DNA of 64,000 bases, taken from assembly GCF_963667135.1 (NCBI RefSeq), contig NZ_OY762974.1, forward strand, positions 2,170,001 to 2,234,000, written 5' to 3'. The position numbers and the translations under genes were made by a program. Origin of the DNA: an uncultured Macellibacteroides sp. Its GTDB lineage: Bacteria; Bacteroidota; Bacteroidia; Bacteroidales; Tannerellaceae. Of this stretch, positions 9,869 to 51,115 are shown one piece after another (the first letter of the stretch is position 1; every line of letters begins with the position of its first letter). The notes under the pieces were generated by a model that was not told the DNA's origin, ran no database searches, and saw nothing but the letters and a program-made list of their open reading frames with translations.

Positions 9869-10531
9869 ATGCAGGAAACGATACAACAGATACGAAAGCA
9901 ACTCCGTTTGGCAATGAACGGGGTTGTTTCTTCCAGTATGCGTGAAAAGGGAATGGATTATAAGATGAACTTCGGTGTTTCAGTTCCCAAGATTAAAGAG
10001 ATTGCATCTCAGTATCAGCCAAATGAGGAGCTAGCCTCCCTGATGTGGGTTCAGGATGTAAGAGAACTGAAAATCATGGCTACGCTGTTGTTCCCGGTGG
10101 ATCTGTTCACTCCCGATGTCGCTGAAAGATGGGTGCGCGAGATAAAGCATCTGGAGATTTCCGAACAGCTGGCAGCCAATTTGTTGCCAAAGCTTTCCTT
10201 TGCGGAGGAGTTAGCTGCCGGATTTATTACTGATGAAGAAGAATTTGTGTCGGTAACAGGCTATCTCTTATTTGCCCGGTTATGTTCGTTGGGAAAATCA
10301 TTGCAAGAAGTTCATGTCAACTTGTTGCTTGATGAAGCATATAAGGTTTTGGATAAGGGGCTTTCACGCAAGCAAAGAGCGGCAAGCCTTGCATTGAAAA
10401 GATTCGGACGTCAGTCTGCTGAACAGGGAACTGCTGTTTTGAATGCGATAGCGGAATTTAAAAATTCCGAATCGCCGGAGAGAACAGAAATATACAATGA
10501 CATCAAATTTGAATTTGAATATTACGAGTAA
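9869..10531 (+). CDS. AlkD-like DNA alkylation repair protein (HEAT-repeat)
   Basis: Member of the DNA_alkylation (PF08713) HEAT-like superfamily, whose characterised proteins excise bulky or charged alkylpurines. The 220-residue, almost entirely helical protein has the family pattern: an N-terminal GVSVPKIKEIASQ segment, then WVQDVRELKIMATLL, and a C-terminal SRKQRAASLALKRFG. It lacks a signal peptide. It is tightly coupled to DPP III (6-nt gap), a pairing without an obvious functional reason. Whether the glycosylase site residues of AlkD are all present cannot be judged without alignment; some family members are structural DNA binders only. Confidence 0.8.
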   Translation: MQETIQQIRKQLRLAMNGVVSSSMREKGMDYKMNFGVSVPKIKEIASQYQPNEELASLMWVQDVRELKIMATLLFPVDLFTPDVAERWVREIKHLEISEQLAANLLPKLSFAEELAAGFITDEEEFVSVTGYLLFARLCSLGKSLQEVHVNLLLDEAYKVLDKGLSRKQRAASLALKRFGRQSAEQGTAVLNAIAEFKNSESPERTEIYNDIKFEFEYYE

Positions 10532-43433: not shown

Positions 43434-44606
43434 TTATTTTTGTTCAACCGCTTTCTTTAATCGGTTCAGTGACTCTTCTATAACAGAACGGGGGCAGCCA
43501 ATGTTCAAACGCATAAAACCTTCTCCTTCTTTTCCAAATATAGACCCATCGTTCAACGCAAGACCCGCCTTGTCGCGGAAGAGTTTTACAAGTTCAGACT
43601 GCGATAAGCCAAGTTCTTTGCAATCCAGCCAGATCAAAAATGAGGCCTGTGGCTCGTAGGCCTTTATTTTAGGGAGTTTCGTTTTTAAGAAAGTATCTAC
43701 AAAACGAACATTTTCCATTATATAAGTGCGCATTTGTTGCAACCATTCTGCCCCGTAAGAATAGGCGGCTGTAGTGGCTTCGTACGCAAAAATAGTACCG
43801 TCATTAAATTCTCCGGCTTCCAGAAAAGAGTAAAATTTCTCTCTTATGGCTTTATTCGGGACAATAGCGTACGAGGTTACGATTCCTGCAATATTAAATG
43901 TTTTGCTTGGAGCCATAAATGTGATAGAGTTGTTTGCGGCTGCTTCCGAAGCTACGGCAAACGGGTGGTGTGGGGATTGAGGGTACGTAAGCTCTGCATG
44001 AATTTCGTCCGATATTATCAATACGCCATGCTTTGCACATAGATCGGCCAGCTTGGCTAACGTTTCATTGTCCCATACAATTCCGGCTGGATTATGAGGA
44101 TTACATAAAATAAGCACTTTGCACCCGTCAATAACAGATTCCAGCTGATCGAAATCCATTTTGTATATCCCGTCAACTAGTTTAAGCGGATTATAAACCA
44201 TTTCACGCTTCATCTTTTCGGGTACAATCCGAAACGGGTGGTATACCGGTGGCTGGATGATAATCTTATCGCCAGGATTGGTAAAACACTGCAGTGCGAA
44301 GGCAATTCCTTTTACAATGCCGGGTATATAGGTTAACCATTCACGCTGGATTTTCCAGTTATGCTTGTAATCGACCCAGTTAATAATGCTTTCGTAGTAG
44401 CTGTCGCCGGCAAACGTGTATCCAAATACTTCATGGTTGCAACGTTCCTTCAGGGCATCGACAATAAAATCGGGGGTCCGGAAATCCATATCGGCGACCC
44501 ATAGGGGAGTGAGGTCTGCATTCCCGTAACGCTCAATCAACGCATCCACTTTTACACAGTTGGTACCTCGTCTGTCAATTATCTCATCAAAATTATAATG
44601 TTTCAT
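43434..44606 (-). CDS. patB: PatB/MalY-type PLP-dependent aminotransferase or cystathionine beta-lyase
   Basis: Fold-type I PLP enzyme of 390 aa in the MalY/PatB group, which cleave C-S bonds of cystathionine or cysteine. PLP Lys235 is in APSKTFNIAG. ISDEIHAEL (198-206, with Asp200 facing the PLP ring) and CNPHNPAGIVW are both seen, and PLWVADMDF near residue 35 is a hallmark of this group. A 125-nt leader containing a CCGGTT/AACCGG hairpin precedes it, unusually long for this window. Exact substrate (cystathionine, cysteine or other) is not decidable. Confidence 0.88.
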   Translation of the reverse strand: MKHYNFDEIIDRRGTNCVKVDALIERYGNADLTPLWVADMDFRTPDFIVDALKERCNHEVFGYTFAGDSYYESIINWVDYKHNWKIQREWLTYIPGIVKGIAFALQCFTNPGDKIIIQPPVYHPFRIVPEKMKREMVYNPLKLVDGIYKMDFDQLESVIDGCKVLILCNPHNPAGIVWDNETLAKLADLCAKHGVLIISDEIHAELTYPQSPHHPFAVASEAAANNSITFMAPSKTFNIAGIVTSYAIVPNKAIREKFYSFLEAGEFNDGTIFAYEATTAAYSYGAEWLQQMRTYIMENVRFVDTFLKTKLPKIKAYEPQASFLIWLDCKELGLSQSELVKLFRDKAGLALNDGSIFGKEGEGFMRLNIGCPRSVIEESLNRLKKAVEQK

Positions 44607-44736
44607 CCTTCCAGTTTATTTATCATTATAAGGAACAGAGGAGTTCGCCTGTTTATTCCTTACTATTATTAATAAGAACGTAGACCCTTATTTCATCTGC
44701 AATACGAATGGAGATGTTTCCGGTTACAAAACCGGG

Positions 44737-44744
44737 CAAAGATA
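44737..44744 (-). promoter_or_regulatory. -7 promoter box for patB
   Basis: TATCTTTG on the minus strand, 130 nt ahead of the patB start; implies a long leader that begins with a CCGGTT-TTGT-AACCGG hairpin (44720-44735). Confidence 0.45.
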
Positions 44745-44922
44745 CAAATTAATTGTTTTCTCTTTTATAGATTAACAGTCTTACCCTTAAATTAACGCCT
44801 CTAAAGAAGGCTGTTTCCTGTTGATTTAGCCCATATATGCGGGTTTTTATATTAAACTGGAATGTAATCCGCCTTTTTTTATTTATAATTGAAAGAAAAA
44901 ACAATAAAAAAATGATGAATTC

Positions 44923-44953
44923 TTTGCAGGTAAAAAATAATGTTCTACATTTG
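44923..44953 (+). promoter_or_regulatory. Promoter of the ilv operon
   Basis: TTTG at 44923-44926 and TACATTTG at 44946-44953, 19 nt apart; a full -33/-7 match. Transcription should start near 44959-44961, about 23 nt ahead of the leader peptide. Confidence 0.75.
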
Positions 44954-44982
44954 CGCCATCATAAATATTGAATAAACGAAAT

Positions 44983-45045
44983 ATGATTAACGGCGTTCTA
45001 CATAGCATTATTCTCGTGGTGGTTCTTCTAGTCATTAGAAGATAA
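44983..45045 (+). CDS. ilv operon leader peptide
   Basis: A 20-codon frame from ATG 44983 to TAA 45043-45045 reads MINGVLHSIILVVVLLVIRR: 13 of 20 residues are Ile, Leu or Val, with ten in a row (codons 9-18). This is what attenuation control by the three branched-chain amino acids needs. It lies just after a strong promoter and ahead of ilvD. The peptide has no other predicted function. Ribosomes short of charged tRNA-Ile, -Val or -Leu would stall between codons 9 and 18, leaving the sequence behind the stop codon free for antitermination pairing. Confidence 0.88.
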   Translation: MINGVLHSIILVVVLLVIRR

Positions 45046-45046
45046 G

Positions 45047-45119
45047 GAGAAAGGTGTGTAAGGAATTGCGTGTTGTAAGAAATTCTTAAAGCCTTTCTCT
45101 GTAGAGAAGGGCTTTTTTT
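45047..45119 (+). promoter_or_regulatory. ilv attenuator: antiterminator strand and terminator
   Basis: The terminator is AAAGCCTTTCTC (45088-45099) with GAGAAGGGCTTT (45104-45115; one G-U pair) and T residues to 45119. The 8-base word GAGAAAGG (45047-45054), starting 2 nt after the leader stop, is exactly complementary to CCTTTCTC (45092-45099), the left arm of the terminator. The two pairings exclude each other. A ribosome at the leader stop covers 45047-45054 and lets the terminator form; a stalled ribosome leaves it free. Confidence 0.85.
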
Positions 45120-45153
45120 ATTAAAAAAATAAGAACGATAAATAAAAGGAAAG

Positions 45154-46986
45154 ATGAAAAATCCGTTGAGAAGTTCATATAGTACACAAGGCCGTCGTAT
45201 GGCTGGAGCCCGTGCCTTGTGGCGCGCCAATGGCGTAAAAGAAGATCAGTTTGGCAAACCTATTATAGCAATCGTAAACTCATTTACCCAATTTGTTCCG
45301 GGACACATGCACTTGCATGATATCGGTCAGATGGTAAAAAAAAGAATTGAGGAGTTGGGTTGCTTTGCCGCCGAATTCAATACAATTGCAATTGACGACG
45401 GTATCGCCATGGGACACGACGGTATGTTGTATTCGCTTCCTTCCAGAGATATTATTGCTGATAGTGTGGAGTATATGGTGAATGCGCACAAAGCTGATGC
45501 CATGATCTGTATCAGTAACTGCGATAAAATTACTCCGGGTATGTTGATGGCTGCCATGCGTCTGAATATTCCCACCATATTTGTATCGGGCGGACCAATG
45601 GAAGCAGGCGAACTGGACGGAAAGGCTCTCGATCTGATAGATGCAATGATGGATGCCGCAGACGATACAGTGAGTGATGAACAGGTTTCGCGCATTGAAC
45701 ATTCAGCTTGTCCTACTTGCGGAAGCTGTTCAGGAATGTTTACAGCCAACTCGATGAACTGCTTAAACGAAGCGCTTGGTCTTGCTTTACCGGGTAACGG
45801 AACAATCGTTGCCACTCATGGCAACCGTAAACGTTTGTTTGAAAACGCAGCTCAATTAATTGTTGAAAATGCTTATAAATATTACCGCGACGGAGACGAT
45901 TCGGTTCTTCCACGGTCGATCGCCACACGGCAGGCTTTCCTGAATTCAATGGCCCTTGATATTGCAATGGGAGGTTCCACCAATACGGTTCTTCACCTTT
46001 TGGCCGTTGCACATGAAGCCGAAGTGGATTTCACCATGAAGGATATCGATGCCCTTTCCCGTAAGATTCCTGTAATATGTAAAGTGGCGCCCAGTTCTTC
46101 TTACCATGTACAGGACGTAAACAGGGCTGGTGGAATTCTTGGAATTATGGATGAACTTCTCAAAGCGGGTCTTGTTGATGGTTCGGTGAAACGTGCCGAT
46201 GGGAGAACGCTGGATGAAGCAGTGGAGGCAATGAGCATTACTAAACCGAACCCGGACGAGATGGCGGTAGCATTATATAAGAGTGCACCGGCTGGAAAGT
46301 TTAATCTGGTTATGGGATCGCAGGAATCTGCGTATAAAACATTGGATGCCGACCGTGTTTCGGGGTGTATCAGGGATGTGGAGCATGCCTACGTAAAAGA
46401 TGGCGGATTAGCTGTATTGTATGGAAACATTGCCGAAGGTGGCTGTGTTGTAAAAACAGCGGGTGTAGACGAAAGTATTTTCCGTTTCTCTGGTCCTGCC
46501 AAAGTATTTGATTCGCAGGATGCCGCATGTGATGCTATTCTGAGGAATCAGGTTGTGGCGGGCGATGTGGTTGTTATTACATACGAAGGTCCAAAGGGTG
46601 GACCAGGTATGCAGGAAATGCTTTATCCAACAACCTATATTAAATCAAGACATTTAGGAAAAGAGTGCGCCTTAATAACCGACGGACGTTTCAGTGGAGG
46701 AACCTCAGGATTGTCTATCGGCCATGTGTCTCCGGAAGCAGCAGCAGGGGGAGCCATCGGGCTGGTTCGTAATGGCGACATCATAGAAATAAATATACCC
46801 GAGCGTTCTATTCGGGTGAAACTTGCAGACGAGGAGCTGGCAGAACGAAGAACCGAAGAAGAATCCCGCGGAACAAAGGCATTTACTCCTCAGATTCGCC
46901 AGCGTACGGTATCAAAGGCTCTACGTGCCTATGCTAAAATGGTAAGCTCTGCCGATAAAGGAGCAGTAAGAATAGTAGAAGATTAA
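45154..46986 (+). CDS. ilvD: Dihydroxy-acid dehydratase
   Basis: Fe-S dehydratase giving 2-oxoisovalerate or 2-oxo-3-methylvalerate; 610 aa. Cluster-binding Cys residues are in SNCDKITPG and [10 protein letters not shown]. Also seen: [24 protein letters not shown] and [11 protein letters not shown] near the C-terminus. First structural gene of the ilv operon, 34 nt after the attenuator. Oxygen-sensitive cluster enzymes fit an anaerobe. Confidence 0.98.
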
Positions 46987-47014: not shown

Positions 47015-48718
47015 ATGGAAACAAAAAAAATAACCGGATCGGAAGCCTTCTTACGCACTTTGATCGCAGAAGGCGTTGATACAATTTTCGGGTATCCCGG
47101 GGGGGCTATTATTCCAGTATATGATTGCCTGTATGATTTCAGAGATCAGATAAGACATATATTGGTCCGGCACGAGCAAGGGGCAACCCATGCTGCACAA
47201 GGATATGCCCGTGTAAATGGAAAAGTAGGTGTTGCCCTGGTAACCAGCGGTCCGGCTGCAACCAATGCCATTACAGGTATTGCCGATGCAATGATGGACA
47301 GTACACCTATCGTTGTGATAACAGGTCAGGTTGCTTCTCCTTTGCTTGGAACGGATGCGTTTCAGGAAACCGATGTGGTGGGTATAACACAACCTATCAG
47401 TAAATGGTCTTATCAGATTCGTAAACCAGAAGAAATCGCCTGGGCTATTTCCAGAGCTTTTTATATTGCGTCGACTGGTCGTCCGGGTCCTGTAGTGATA
47501 GACTTTGCCAAAGATGCGCAGATCGGATTGGTCGATTATAAATACGAGAAGGTGGATTATATCCGCAGCTATCAGCCGGTTCCAGATCTGGATATGGATC
47601 TTATAGCCGAGGCTGCCGACTTAATTAACAATGCTAAAAAACCGTTTGCCTTAGTAGGACAAGGGGTTGTGATCGGCAATGCTGAAAAAGAATTGATGAC
47701 TTTCCTTGAAAAGGCAGATATTCCTGCGGCTGCTACCGTGCTTGGACTTTCGGCAATGCCTACCGATTTTCATTTGAATAAGGGCATGTTGGGAATGCAT
47801 GGAAATGTAGGGCCTAACCGTAAAACCAATGAGTGCGATGTGCTGATTGCCATTGGTATGCGTTTCGACGACCGTGTTACGGGAGATTTAAAGACCTATG
47901 CCAAACAGGCTAAGATAATTCATTTCGATATTGATATTTCCGAGATAGGAAAGAATGTGATTCCTGCAGTTCCGGTGGCTGGCAATGCCAAGTATACTTT
48001 GGCTGCTATAACGGAATTGATTACGCCGGCCAAACATACCGAATGGGTCGATTCATTTAAGGTCGACGAAAAAGAGGAAGACGAGAAGGTTATTCAGGAT
48101 GAACTTTTTCCAAAGTCAGGCATGTTGAGGATGGGAGAGGTGATACGCCGGGTTTCCGAAGCAACCAACAATGATGCAATTCTTGTAACGGATGTAGGTC
48201 AGAATCAAATGATGGCAGTTCGTTATTTTAAATACAAGCAAACCCGAAGTGTTGTTACCAGCGGAGGCTTGGGAACCATGGGCTTTGGTTTACCTGCGGC
48301 CATTGGAGCAAAGGTGGGAGCACCAAACCGTGAAGTTTGTATGTTCTGTGGCGATGGTGGTATTCAGATGACTATACAGGAGTTTGGTACTATTATGCAG
48401 GAGCATCTTAACGTAAAAATGATCATTCTTAATAACAACTTCCTCGGAATGGTTCGTCAGTGGCAGGAGCTTTTCTATAAGGAGCGTTACTCCGCAACCA
48501 TCATGGAGAACCCCGATTTTGTTGCCATTGCCGCGGCTTATAAAATTGCCGCAAAGCATATATACGAGCGTGAAGAACTGGATGGAGCTATCAAGGAAAT
48601 GCTTTCGCACGACGGCCCCTATCTGTTGGTGGCTGAAGTGGAAGAAAGAGGGATGGTTTATCCGATGGTGCCCGCCGGGACATGCGTGACTAATATCATT
48701 ATGGGTGATAATCAATAA
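47015..48718 (+). CDS. ilvB: Acetolactate synthase, large subunit
   Basis: ThDP-, FAD- and Mg-dependent condensation of pyruvate with pyruvate or 2-oxobutyrate; 567 aa. Seen: FGYPGGAIIPVYD, the catalytic Glu in VRHEQGATHAA, the FAD-binding GMHGNVGPN and the ThDP motif CGDGGIQMTIQEFGT followed by NNNFLGMVRQW. 28 nt after ilvD, 17 nt before the regulatory subunit. Confidence 0.98.
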   Translation: METKKITGSEAFLRTLIAEGVDTIFGYPGGAIIPVYDCLYDFRDQIRHILVRHEQGATHAAQGYARVNGKVGVALVTSGPAATNAITGIADAMMDSTPIVVITGQVASPLLGTDAFQETDVVGITQPISKWSYQIRKPEEIAWAISRAFYIASTGRPGPVVIDFAKDAQIGLVDYKYEKVDYIRSYQPVPDLDMDLIAEAADLINNAKKPFALVGQGVVIGNAEKELMTFLEKADIPAAATVLGLSAMPTDFHLNKGMLGMHGNVGPNRKTNECDVLIAIGMRFDDRVTGDLKTYAKQAKIIHFDIDISEIGKNVIPAVPVAGNAKYTLAAITELITPAKHTEWVDSFKVDEKEEDEKVIQDELFPKSGMLRMGEVIRRVSEATNNDAILVTDVGQNQMMAVRYFKYKQTRSVVTSGGLGTMGFGLPAAIGAKVGAPNREVCMFCGDGGIQMTIQEFGTIMQEHLNVKMIILNNNFLGMVRQWQELFYKERYSATIMENPDFVAIAAAYKIAAKHIYEREELDGAIKEMLSHDGPYLLVAEVEERGMVYPMVPAGTCVTNIIMGDNQ

Positions 48719-48735: not shown

Positions 48736-49302
48736 ATGTCAGATAAAACATTATATACCGTTACTATTTTTTCGGAGAATACCGTCGGGTTACTTAATCA
48801 GATCACGATTATCTTTACCCGTCGTCAACTAAACATTGAAACGTTGTCGGTATCTCCTTCGGCATTGCAAGGAATACACAAGTTCACCATAACTACTTTT
48901 TCGGACGAATCTACAATCGATAAAATAGTAAAGCAGATTGATAAGCGGGTGGATATCCTAAAGGCATTTTACAATACGGACGAAGATCTTGTTTTTCAGG
49001 AGATAGCTTTGTATAAGTTAAGTACCGAATTGTTTCTGAAGATGGGATCTGTCGAAGAACTTATCCGGAAACACAATGCCCGTATTCTGGAAATTAATGA
49101 AGTATGCGTTGTGCTGGAAAAGACAGGACATTATGTTGAAACACAGGCTTTATTTAAAGAATTAAGCGAATCGATCGGTGTTTTGCAATTTATTCGCTCT
49201 GGTAGAATAGCCATTAATAAAAGCAAGGTCGAACGTTTGAGCGACATGCTTTCTTTAATGGAAAAGAAAAGACTGGAAAAAGAAGCAGACTATCATGAGT
49301 AA
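48736..49302 (+). CDS. ilvN: Acetolactate synthase, small regulatory subunit
   Basis: ACT-domain subunit that activates the large subunit and gives feedback inhibition by valine; 188 aa. It starts MSDKTLYTVTIFSENTVGLL, an ACT domain with NQITIIFTRRQLNIETLSV, followed by the C-terminal dimerisation domain with ELFLKMGSVEELIRKHNARI. Its last 8 bases overlap the thioesterase start, so those two are translationally coupled. Confidence 0.94.
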   Translation: MSDKTLYTVTIFSENTVGLLNQITIIFTRRQLNIETLSVSPSALQGIHKFTITTFSDESTIDKIVKQIDKRVDILKAFYNTDEDLVFQEIALYKLSTELFLKMGSVEELIRKHNARILEINEVCVVLEKTGHYVETQALFKELSESIGVLQFIRSGRIAINKSKVERLSDMLSLMEKKRLEKEADYHE

Positions 49303-50029
49303 AATAGGTGAGTTCCATTTTGTTTCAGAATCTTATTTATTGGATTTCAGAGGCCGTGTAACAATTCCCATGATGGGGAATTACCTGCTTCATGCATCTA
49401 GCACGCATGCTGAACAAAGGGGCTTCGGGTTTAATGATATGAAAAAACAGGGATGTGCGTGGGTGCTTTCGCGAATGGTCATCGAGATGATTTCTCATCC
49501 AACCATGCTGCAGCCATTCACTATTACAACCTGGGTGGAAGAGATAAATAAGTTCTTTACCAGCCGTTGTTTTGCCATAAGAAACGAAGCGGGAGAGGCT
49601 ATCGGGTATTGTCGTACCTTGTGGGCGGCCATTGATCTGGAAACACGCAAGCCAACCGATTTATCTTTGCTGCAAAATAACCTGGGTTCTTTTATCGTGG
49701 ATGAACCTTGTCCGATCGAGAAGCCGGGAAAGATTCAGGCCGCAGAGCGTGATACGCCGGGAATGCCTTACAAGGTCTGTTATAGCGACCTGGATGTGAA
49801 CGGGCATCTCAACAGCATAAAGTATATGGAGCATCTGCTCAATATGTTCGATATCGAGATGTTTAGACACAAAGAGGTAAGCCGTTTCGAAATAGCCTAT
49901 TTGGCTGAGGGAAAATATGGAATGGAATTATCCTTGCATAAAAAAGAAATTACTCCCGACCGGTATATTACTTCTATTTGCGATGAAGCAGGTAAAGCAA
50001 TATGTCGTGCGGAAATAACATGGAAATAA
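49295..50029 (+). CDS. Acyl-ACP thioesterase
   Basis: Double hot-dog thioesterase of the FatA/FatB-like PF01643 family, 244 aa, releasing fatty acids from acyl carrier protein. The N-terminal hot dog includes DFRGRVTIPMMGNYLLHAS and WVLSRMVIEM; the C-terminal hot dog has the catalytic-type segment VCYSDLDVNGHLNSIKYMEH with Asp, Asn and His. It sits between ilvN and ilvC and overlaps ilvN by 8 bases. The position suggests a link between branched-chain amino acid synthesis and branched-chain fatty acid release; that link is inference. The same order occurs in other Bacteroidales to my recollection. Confidence 0.9.
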   Translation: MSKIGEFHFVSESYLLDFRGRVTIPMMGNYLLHASSTHAEQRGFGFNDMKKQGCAWVLSRMVIEMISHPTMLQPFTITTWVEEINKFFTSRCFAIRNEAGEAIGYCRTLWAAIDLETRKPTDLSLLQNNLGSFIVDEPCPIEKPGKIQAAERDTPGMPYKVCYSDLDVNGHLNSIKYMEHLLNMFDIEMFRHKEVSRFEIAYLAEGKYGMELSLHKKEITPDRYITSICDEAGKAICRAEITWK

Positions 50030-50068: not shown

Positions 50069-51115
50069 ATGGCAGTAATGAATTTCGGCGGTGTAGAAGA
50101 AAACGTAGTTACCCGCGAAGAGTTTCCATTGGAAAAGGCAAGAGAAGTATTGAAAAATGAAACAATTGCAATCATTGGTTATGGTGTACAGGGCCCGGGT
50201 CAGAGCCTTAACCTGCGCGATAATGGATTCAATGTAATCGTTGGTCAGCGTAAGGAATCAAAAACATGGGACAAGGCTGTTGCAGATGGTTGGGTACCAG
50301 GCGAAACGTTGTTTGATATAGAAGAAGCTTGCGAAAAAGCAACGATCATCCAGTATCTTCTTTCGGATGCTGCGCAGATTGAAGTTTGGCCAACTGTACA
50401 GAAACATCTTACTCCGGGTAAGGCTCTTTACTTCTCTCATGGCTTTGCAATCACTTACAAAGAACGTACAGGGATTGTTCCTCCTGCTGATGTTGATGTT
50501 ATTCTAGTTGCTCCAAAAGGTTCAGGAACGAGTCTTCGTCGTATGTTCCTGCAAGGTCGCGGCTTGAACTCTAGCTACGCTATTTTCCAGGATGCTACAG
50601 GTAAAGCATACGATCGTGTTGTTGCTTTAGGTATTGGCGTTGGTTCTGGTTACTTATTCGAAACTACTTTCAAACGTGAAGTATATTCAGACTTAACCGG
50701 CGAACGTGGTACATTGATGGGTGCTATCCAGGGTATTTTTGCTGCTCAGTACGACACTCTTCGTGCCAATGGACATACTCCATCCGAAGCATTCAACGAA
50801 ACAGTTGAAGAACTTACTCAGAGTCTTATGCCTCTGGTAGCAGAAAACGGAATGGACTGGATGTATGCAAACTGCTCTACAACGGCTCAACGTGGTGCTT
50901 TGGATTGGTGGAAGAAGTTCCGCGATGCAAGCAAGCCTGTATTTGAAGAACTTTACAGCGAAGTTGCCAAAGGTAACGAAGCGCAGCGTTCTATTGATAC
51001 AAACAGCAAACCAGACTACCGTAAGGGTCTTGAAGAAGAATTGAAAGAAATGCGCGAAAGCGAAATGTGGCAGGCCGGTATGGTAGTTCGTAAACTACGT
51101 CCGGAAAACAACTAA
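50069..51115 (+). CDS. ilvC: Ketol-acid reductoisomerase
   Basis: NAD(P)H- and Mg-dependent isomeroreductase, class I, 348 aa. Rossmann motif IIGYGVQGPGQSLNLRDNG, the metal-binding SDLTGERG and the C-terminal knotted domain with EELTQSLMPLV are visible. VGQRKESKTW after the second strand would select NADPH or NADH. Last gene of the operon; a terminator follows the stop by about 20 nt. Together ilvD-ilvB-ilvN-ilvC cover all reactions from pyruvate/2-oxobutyrate to the 2-oxo acids. Confidence 0.98.
   Translation: MAVMNFGGVEENVVTREEFPLEKAREVLKNETIAIIGYGVQGPGQSLNLRDNGFNVIVGQRKESKTWDKAVADGWVPGETLFDIEEACEKATIIQYLLSDAAQIEVWPTVQKHLTPGKALYFSHGFAITYKERTGIVPPADVDVILVAPKGSGTSLRRMFLQGRGLNSSYAIFQDATGKAYDRVVALGIGVGSGYLFETTFKREVYSDLTGERGTLMGAIQGIFAAQYDTLRANGHTPSEAFNETVEELTQSLMPLVAENGMDWMYANCSTTAQRGALDWWKKFRDASKPVFEELYSEVAKGNEAQRSIDTNSKPDYRKGLEEELKEMRESEMWQAGMVVRKLRPENN

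Follow-up and report, generated by a model that had tools for sequence, protein, structure and literature searches.

The window, by which we mean the whole 64,000-nt stretch of DNA analysed here, covers positions 2170001-2234000 of the 4.46-Mb single-contig genome of an uncultured Macellibacteroides sp. It contains a predicted ilv operon for the synthesis of branched-chain amino acids that is preceded by a short leader region (Table 1). A gene predicted to encode a thioesterase-like protein is located inside this operon between ilvN and ilvC, and overlaps ilvN by 8 nt. A gene for a PatB-type C-S lyase (43434-44606) is divergent from the operon. Between the end of this gene at 44606 and ilvD there is no plus-strand frame of at least 100 aa, so there is no other evident gene that the terminator in the leader region could end. 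Among 80 loci, a Tannerellaceae MAG (L003) was the nearest named relative, with 82% ilvD identity.

Table 1. Features of the ilv locus and its leader region, in window coordinates.
Feature	Position	Strand	Basis
Promoter, Bacteroidetes-type	TTTG 44923-44926, 19-nt spacer, TACATTTG 44946-44953	+	sequence
Leader peptide frame MINGVLHSIILVVVLLVIRR, 20 codons	ATG 44983 to TAA 45043-45045	+	sequence, relatives
Run of ten regulatory codons (Ile Ile Leu Val Val Val Leu Leu Val Ile)	45007-45036	+	sequence
Segments 1:2, protector (pause) hairpin of leader codons with antiterminator segment	44988-45075	+	predicted fold, covariation
Segment 2, antiterminator left arm GAGAAAGGT, leader stop 1 base away	45047-45055	+	sequence, fold, alignment
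Inner antiterminator helix, left side (partner 45083-45088)	45059-45064	+	fold; weakly supported
Segment 3, common to antiterminator and terminator	45091-45099	+	sequence, fold, alignment
Segments 3:4, intrinsic terminator (12 pairs, loop 4, stem 45088-45115, T run to 45119)	45088-45119	+	sequence, covariation
ilvD, dihydroxy-acid dehydratase	45154-46986	+	NCBIfam TIGR00110, 788 bits, cut-off 618
ilvB, acetolactate synthase large subunit	47015-48718	+	TIGR00118, 686 bits, cut-off 538
ilvN, acetolactate synthase small subunit	48736-49302	+	TIGR00119, 78 bits, cut-off 57
Acyl-ACP/acyl-CoA thioesterase-like gene	49295-50029	+	weak TIGR00051 match, below cut-off
ilvC, ketol-acid reductoisomerase	50069-51115	+	TIGR00465, 326 bits, cut-off 226

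An earlier sequence-only reading of this DNA had placed a promoter, a 20-codon leader with ten Ile/Leu/Val codons, and a terminator upstream of ilvD, and we found all three at the positions it gave. Transcription would start at approximately 44960. The same reading had pointed to an 8-base complement of the terminator left arm just past the leader stop. This complement is exact: GAGAAAGG (45047-45054), which begins at the second base after the stop codon, can pair fully with CCTTTCTC (45092-45099). The interval 44700-45400 contains three terminator-like sites compared with a mean of 0.5 in shuffled sequences, and the T run ends 34 nt before the start of ilvD at 45154. A search of the window's own genome with the exact pattern CCTTTCTC-N(2-14)-GAGAAAGG gave no match because the right arm in the window is GAGAAGGG, which contains a U-G pair.

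Folding of 44983-45087 gave a structure of -23.6 kcal/mol with the 1:2 hairpin, the outer pairs of which differ in detail from the family consensus, and the 3:4 terminator folded at -16.1 kcal/mol. The minimum free energy structure of the full-length leader without translation contains 1:2 plus 3:4, which is the off state, yet in the equilibrium fold before segment 4 is present the 2:3 pairing is favoured even without a ribosome (P 0.99). This leaves the untranslated state uncertain.

We then examined the regions upstream of 166 distinct ilvD loci, sorted by record title into 87 from Tannerellaceae, 62 from other Bacteroidota, and 17 from other phyla. The 87 family loci include that of the window and of a second genome of its species; 90 loci were taken from the 111 family matches listed. 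Three duplicates (L087, L090, and L154) and a locus at a contig end (L121) were dropped, and the Tannerella locus L014, the same as L154, was counted among the 62 other Bacteroidota. When a leader was defined as an ATG-started short frame within 260 nt having at least eight Ile, Leu, or Val in 12 codons, 69 of the 87 Tannerellaceae loci, 33 of the 62 other Bacteroidota, and none of the 17 loci from other phyla contained one. Dinucleotide shuffles of the three groups contained such a frame in 5/870, 6/620, and 0/170 cases (11/1,490 for the first two pooled), and the opposite strand in 2, 1, and 0 loci.

With a looser cut (7 of 12 codons, 450 nt) plus inspection, a leader was present in 74 of the 87 family loci. 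It was detected by frame in 71 of these, and the 74 include L086, L093, and L106, where a contig end or the start codon hides the leader; a 72nd locus by frame, L163, was set aside as false. Among the 13 family loci left without a leader, L159, L161, and L166 keep a motif like segment 3, whereas L153 and L169 have a mechanical open frame that extends up to ilvD. In the other Bacteroidota 24 of the 62 loci had no accepted leader. One of these, L012, carries a leader without an ATG; L061 and L072 had satisfied the looser cut but were rejected as false. Thus, the leader is common without being universal. The earlier expectation that relatives would keep a leader frame of Ile/Leu/Val content was borne out in the 74 family loci; the leaderless loci are exceptions to it.

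Fifteen of the 24 leaderless loci from other Bacteroidota are Prevotellaceae or rumen MAGs by title, counting Marseilla (L066), which we take to belong to the Prevotellaceae. Loci with no leader upstream of ilvD include L036, L050, L053, L059, L060, L065, L072, and L073 in addition to other Prevotellaceae or rumen loci. Two loci also titled Prevotellaceae, L019 and L029, carry a leader. This distribution suggests that attenuator control may have been lost or replaced in part of the Prevotellaceae/rumen lineage.

Changes in the core codons of the leader showed only a mild bias: they were synonymous or stayed within Ile, Leu, and Val in 108 of 158 cases compared with 44 of 81 single-base neighbours, in rows that are related and were preselected for these residues. 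This count covers nine core codons, with nine of the 72 listed rows dropped. A search for exact GAGAAAGG...CCTTTCTC in 296 genomes of the phylum matched 20, compared with 22 for the backwards control. The match in the window is the only one of the 20 that is a known attenuator, the others being judged from their letters alone. This search says nothing about how widely the element is spread because only two genomes of the same order besides that of the window (G000) were sampled.

In the region approximately 60-355 nt upstream of ilvD, three loci contain a second terminator: L067 (Marinifilum), L068 (Labilibaculum), and L069 (a Marinifilaceae MAG). L068 and L069 also have a further Ile/Val-rich frame (MQFNSVIIISVIIRVLLDTIRG), and in both of them this frame and the second terminator are located upstream of the first. 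These loci possibly contain two attenuators in tandem.

The promoter motif is also retained. The sequence TAnnTTTG, stated to be the -7 motif of Flavobacterium psychrophilum in PMC9723704, precedes the leader ATG by 5-80 nt in 65/69 Tannerellaceae and 28/31 other loci. Mononucleotide shuffles contained it in 86/1380 and 37/620 cases, respectively.

To compare the helices among relatives we used RNAalifold with 54 of the 68 distinct family regions; the 14 more divergent regions were left out. Unprompted, the program returned two helical domains, one that pairs leader codons with the segment after the stop codon (1:2) and one that corresponds to 3:4. At 14 of the 29 pairs at least one sequence is changed on both sides with pairing kept. 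In the 1:2 helix 96.7% of cells are paired and 41 cells are changed on both sides, compared with 37-57% and no more than 9 cells in slid controls (54 sequences). Both-sided changes occur at 9 of its 18 consensus pairs, where shuffled alignments had a mean of 2.3 and none of 500 were as high. For instance, alignment columns 21 and 85 contain A-U in 21 sequences, G-C in 20, and G-U in 11, and are unpaired in 2; the base in column 21 is at the third position of a Leu codon, and column 85 is five columns behind the core of segment 2. For the 3:4 terminator, 98.7% of cells are paired compared with 34-75% in slid controls, and 5 of its 11 pairs are changed on both sides, where the shuffled mean was 1.4. 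The compact layout previously proposed, with one alternative pairing and apparently without a separate pause hairpin, is therefore incorrect. The coding region of the leader pairs with the antiterminator segment, this conserved and covarying 1:2 hairpin spans the leader, and all four classical segments are present.

The pairing between segments 2 and 3 is conserved in another manner. Within the family its 8-nt core is paired in 98.6% of cells and nearly invariant, and the inner antiterminator helix is paired in 66.9% of cells. Seven pairs in the 2:3 structure are changed on both sides, of which the inner helix accounts for six; shuffled alignments had a mean of 5.4 such pairs in the whole structure, and 47 of 500 were as high. 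Because segments 2 and 3 hardly vary here, the support from within the family is retention rather than covariation. Between families the two segments change jointly, as in GAATGGTTT/AAACCATTC in L045, GGAAGGGC/GCCCTTCC in L063, and GAAGAAAGGT/ACCTTTCTTC in L017. The compensatory changes between 45047-45054 and 45092-45099 that had been proposed as a check were found between families, with near-invariance within the family.

At a p of 0.05 against shuffles, the best duplex with the terminator left arm was recovered in 56/69 Tannerellaceae and 21/33 other loci. This test started from 112 leaders, with nine that had no scanned terminator and L072 left out; the terminator scan missed some likely terminators (for example in L006, L062, L099, and L144), and the affected loci do not enter the later counts. 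Where the family keeps the leader it also keeps the 2:3 and 3:4 pairings, and some of the other Bacteroidales have both in altered sequence. The comparative check proposed in the sequence-only reading was largely borne out.

In 74 of 103 loci, the exact complement that best matches the left arm begins 0-2 nt past the stop codon. For counts of spacing, eight loci with a duplex p above 0.13 were left out. In 7/67 Tannerellaceae loci and 7/27 others, the leader frame reads through segment 2 and stops behind it. Measured from the first base of the last Ile/Leu/Val codon, segment 2 is 13-16 nt away in 63/67 Tannerellaceae loci and 12-18 nt away in 21/27 others. For the read-through frames this spacing is 13 nt in 5/7 family loci and 12-18 nt in 3/7 others, and only 8 of these 14 frames are at 12-18 nt.

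We modelled the ribosome as a mask on the leader RNA and took its leading edge to lie 12 nt from where the A-site codon starts. In the window, P(2:3) was 1.0 for each A-site position up to and including Ile18, 0.75 at Arg19, 0.31 at Arg20, and 0 at the stop codon. In this model, a ribosome at the regulatory codons would free segment 2 and a ribosome at the stop codon would cover it. Such a switch was predicted in 94 of 102 loci compared with 109 of 306 with shuffled spacers (no duplex filter). Since so many shuffled spacers pass, part of the effect comes from the layout of the test. With leading edges of 10, 12, and 14 nt, the number of loci that switch was 87, 87, and 86 of the 94 filtered loci.

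We conclude that this region is very probably a ribosome-mediated transcription attenuator of the classical kind that controls the synthesis of branched-chain amino acids. The leader contains cognate codons, an intrinsic terminator is located between it and the first structural gene, antiterminator and terminator are mutually exclusive because both use segment 3, and leader codons form a protector hairpin with segment 2. From the sequence elements and their conservation, the covariation of 1:2 and 3:4, the spacing, and the joint changes that segments 2 and 3 undergo between families, all of which are observed here, we infer promoter use, leader translation, ribosome stalling, and termination in the cell. 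After transcription begins near 44960, a ribosome would translate the leader through its run of ten regulatory codons. If the cell runs short of charged tRNA for one or more of Ile, Leu, and Val, the ribosome would stall within this run and open the 1:2 protector hairpin, leaving segment 2 free to pair with the nascent segment 3. This pairing would block the terminator, and RNA polymerase would continue into ilvD-ilvB-ilvN-thioesterase-ilvC. When all three amino acids are plentiful, the ribosome would reach the stop codon with its leading edge over segment 2, the 3:4 terminator would form, and transcription would end near 45119. The earlier proposal that attenuation logic of the enteric type operates in a Bacteroidales species is supported by the conservation of the leader and by the 2:3 and 3:4 pairings that are kept with it.

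Other explanations were weighed against this one. The frame could encode a real small membrane peptide, with the terminator separating it from ilvD without any sensing of amino acids. The peptide is short and hydrophobic, and nearly identical in many Tannerellaceae (MNNVLHIILVVVLLVISR). However, the core of 102 leaders contains 991 Ile, Leu, or Val in 1224 residues compared with 27 other hydrophobic residues (Ala, Phe, Met, Trp, Cys, and Gly), a contrast that is flattered because the leaders were picked for Ile/Leu/Val content. For strongly hydrophobic 12-mers in the long open frames of the window (all six frames, partly non-coding) the figures were 209 vs. 198. Polar residues also break up the run in relatives, and where leader codons pair with downstream RNA, changes at their third bases are compensated; together these points make a membrane peptide very unlikely. 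A ligand-binding riboswitch or an RNA-binding protein might control the terminator, with the short frame being incidental, and a structured 5' region with alternative folds would suit this. We consider it extremely unlikely, as no Rfam family apart from a distant tRNA reached its gathering score in the window, and the spacing from the last Ile/Leu/Val codon to segment 2, which is kept in the family and, loosely, outside of it, is not expected under a ligand mechanism.

The terminated transcript of approximately 160 nt might itself be a small RNA acting in trans, since promoter and terminator define a discrete RNA. There is a weak full-length Rfam match to the Bacteroides small RNA GibS (RF04182; 32 bits, E 0.0056-0.0077) with no flagged non-standard pair at paired positions. 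This score is far under the GibS gathering score of 115, on which ground we set the GibS identity aside, and the letters in common are mostly at the 5' end, the terminator, and the tail. Conservation of the region tracks ilvD and the coding frame, and a trans-acting small RNA is an exceedingly improbable account of it. The terminated leader of an attenuator may have a small-RNA role as a by-product, and in transcriptome maps it could pass for a small RNA.

Candidate leaders were also found at other amino acid operons of the same genome. A candidate leu leader, MIQHTANSFIIISLIDILLWERTGK (FIIISLIDILL), is at 9734-9882 of L177 (G000:C1 2249734-2249882), with leuA at 9922. The left arm of its terminator carries CCTTTCTCACTTCC, and the core CCTTTCTC is common to the leu and ilv terminators. 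Segment 2 overlaps the leader stop codon (duplex p 0.011). A candidate his leader, MKVNTLHHHHHYNGQ (HHHHH), is located on the minus strand of L178, where it precedes hisG (start 3503) and is followed by a terminator at 3576-3543 on that strand (duplex p 0.05). The poly-His pattern occurs in 33 of 123 family genomes compared with 4 for the backwards control. Ten poly-His loci were read: five, including that in the window's genome, have the leader followed by hisG, and five have no hisG. Similar leaders precede hisG in L184, L185, L186, and L189. A trp leader, MKTILVNAYWWRFLQLIKS, with tandem Trp codons (WW) is on the minus strand of L179 (4123-4253), and this region scores 66.9 bits against Rfam Bacteroid-trp (RF01692, gathering score 49). 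The duplex search placed the trp antiterminator inside the Trp codons, a placement that we do not trust. No leader-terminator pair was seen upstream of the aspartokinase-homoserine dehydrogenase gene of the threonine operon.

We lean towards the view that leader-peptide attenuators at ilv, leu, his, and trp are common to the Bacteroidales as a set. For ilv, the conserved quantity would be a ruler of approximately 13 nt between the last regulatory codon and the antiterminator, which mostly holds on whichever side of the antiterminator the leader stop lies. Bacteroidota largely do without Shine-Dalgarno initiation. If the shared set and the ruler are real, the first ribosome must stay close behind RNA polymerase in this phylum, and coupling of transcription and translation would be directly measurable in Bacteroidota. 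The ilv switch is a ready test of this coupling because it works only with a ribosome close behind the polymerase. It also stands as a concrete and well-supported element for regulating the synthesis of branched-chain amino acids in Bacteroidales.

Among the matches listed from the open-access literature, titles and abstract openings described no ilv attenuator in Bacteroidota. A 2010 study by Lopatovskaya et al., cited in PMC4833913, may already include attenuators of Bacteroidetes, and we claim no priority for the element. At gathering score the ilv leader of the window and of seven relatives matched no Rfam family, Bacteroid-trp included, and twelve further ilv loci, several from termite-gut relatives, had no match at E 0.5, Termite-leu included. 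Bacteroid-trp (RF01692), a motif listed in Table 1 of PMC2864571, is of the same phylum and mechanism class as the ilv leader and differs from it in its Trp codons and its RNA. In F. psychrophilum strong clues for leader-peptide attenuation are reported before amino acid biosynthesis operons, in the same phylum; the available portion of that paper does not name an ilv leader (PMC9723704). Short frames reminiscent of leader peptides are reported in B. thetaiotaomicron (PMC7366714), and a general discussion of his regulation does not use the word leader in the portion available (PMC8305728). In another phylum, the ilvBNC attenuator/uORF of Corynebacterium is likewise reported to control ilv genes through a leader (PMC10272879, PMC11857589). 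The sequence-only reading called attenuators far less documented in Bacteroidota; the mechanism is little studied in Bacteroidales, but for the phylum Bacteroid-trp and the F. psychrophilum candidates were on record already. The mechanism is known, and the element in the window is apparently an undescribed ilv member in Bacteroidota.

The enteric ilvGMEDA and ilvBN (ivbL) attenuators consist of an Ile/Leu/Val-rich leader peptide followed by protector, antiterminator, and terminator helices, with ilv genes downstream. Compared by layout alone, the ilv leader in the window has the same arrangement. In E. coli, a ribosome at the leader stop codon favours the terminator (PMC5373646), as would be the case in the mechanism proposed above. 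Unlike the enteric ilv attenuators, the one in the window has a Bacteroidetes promoter, and segment 2 starts at or just after the leader stop codon in many of its relatives (74/103).
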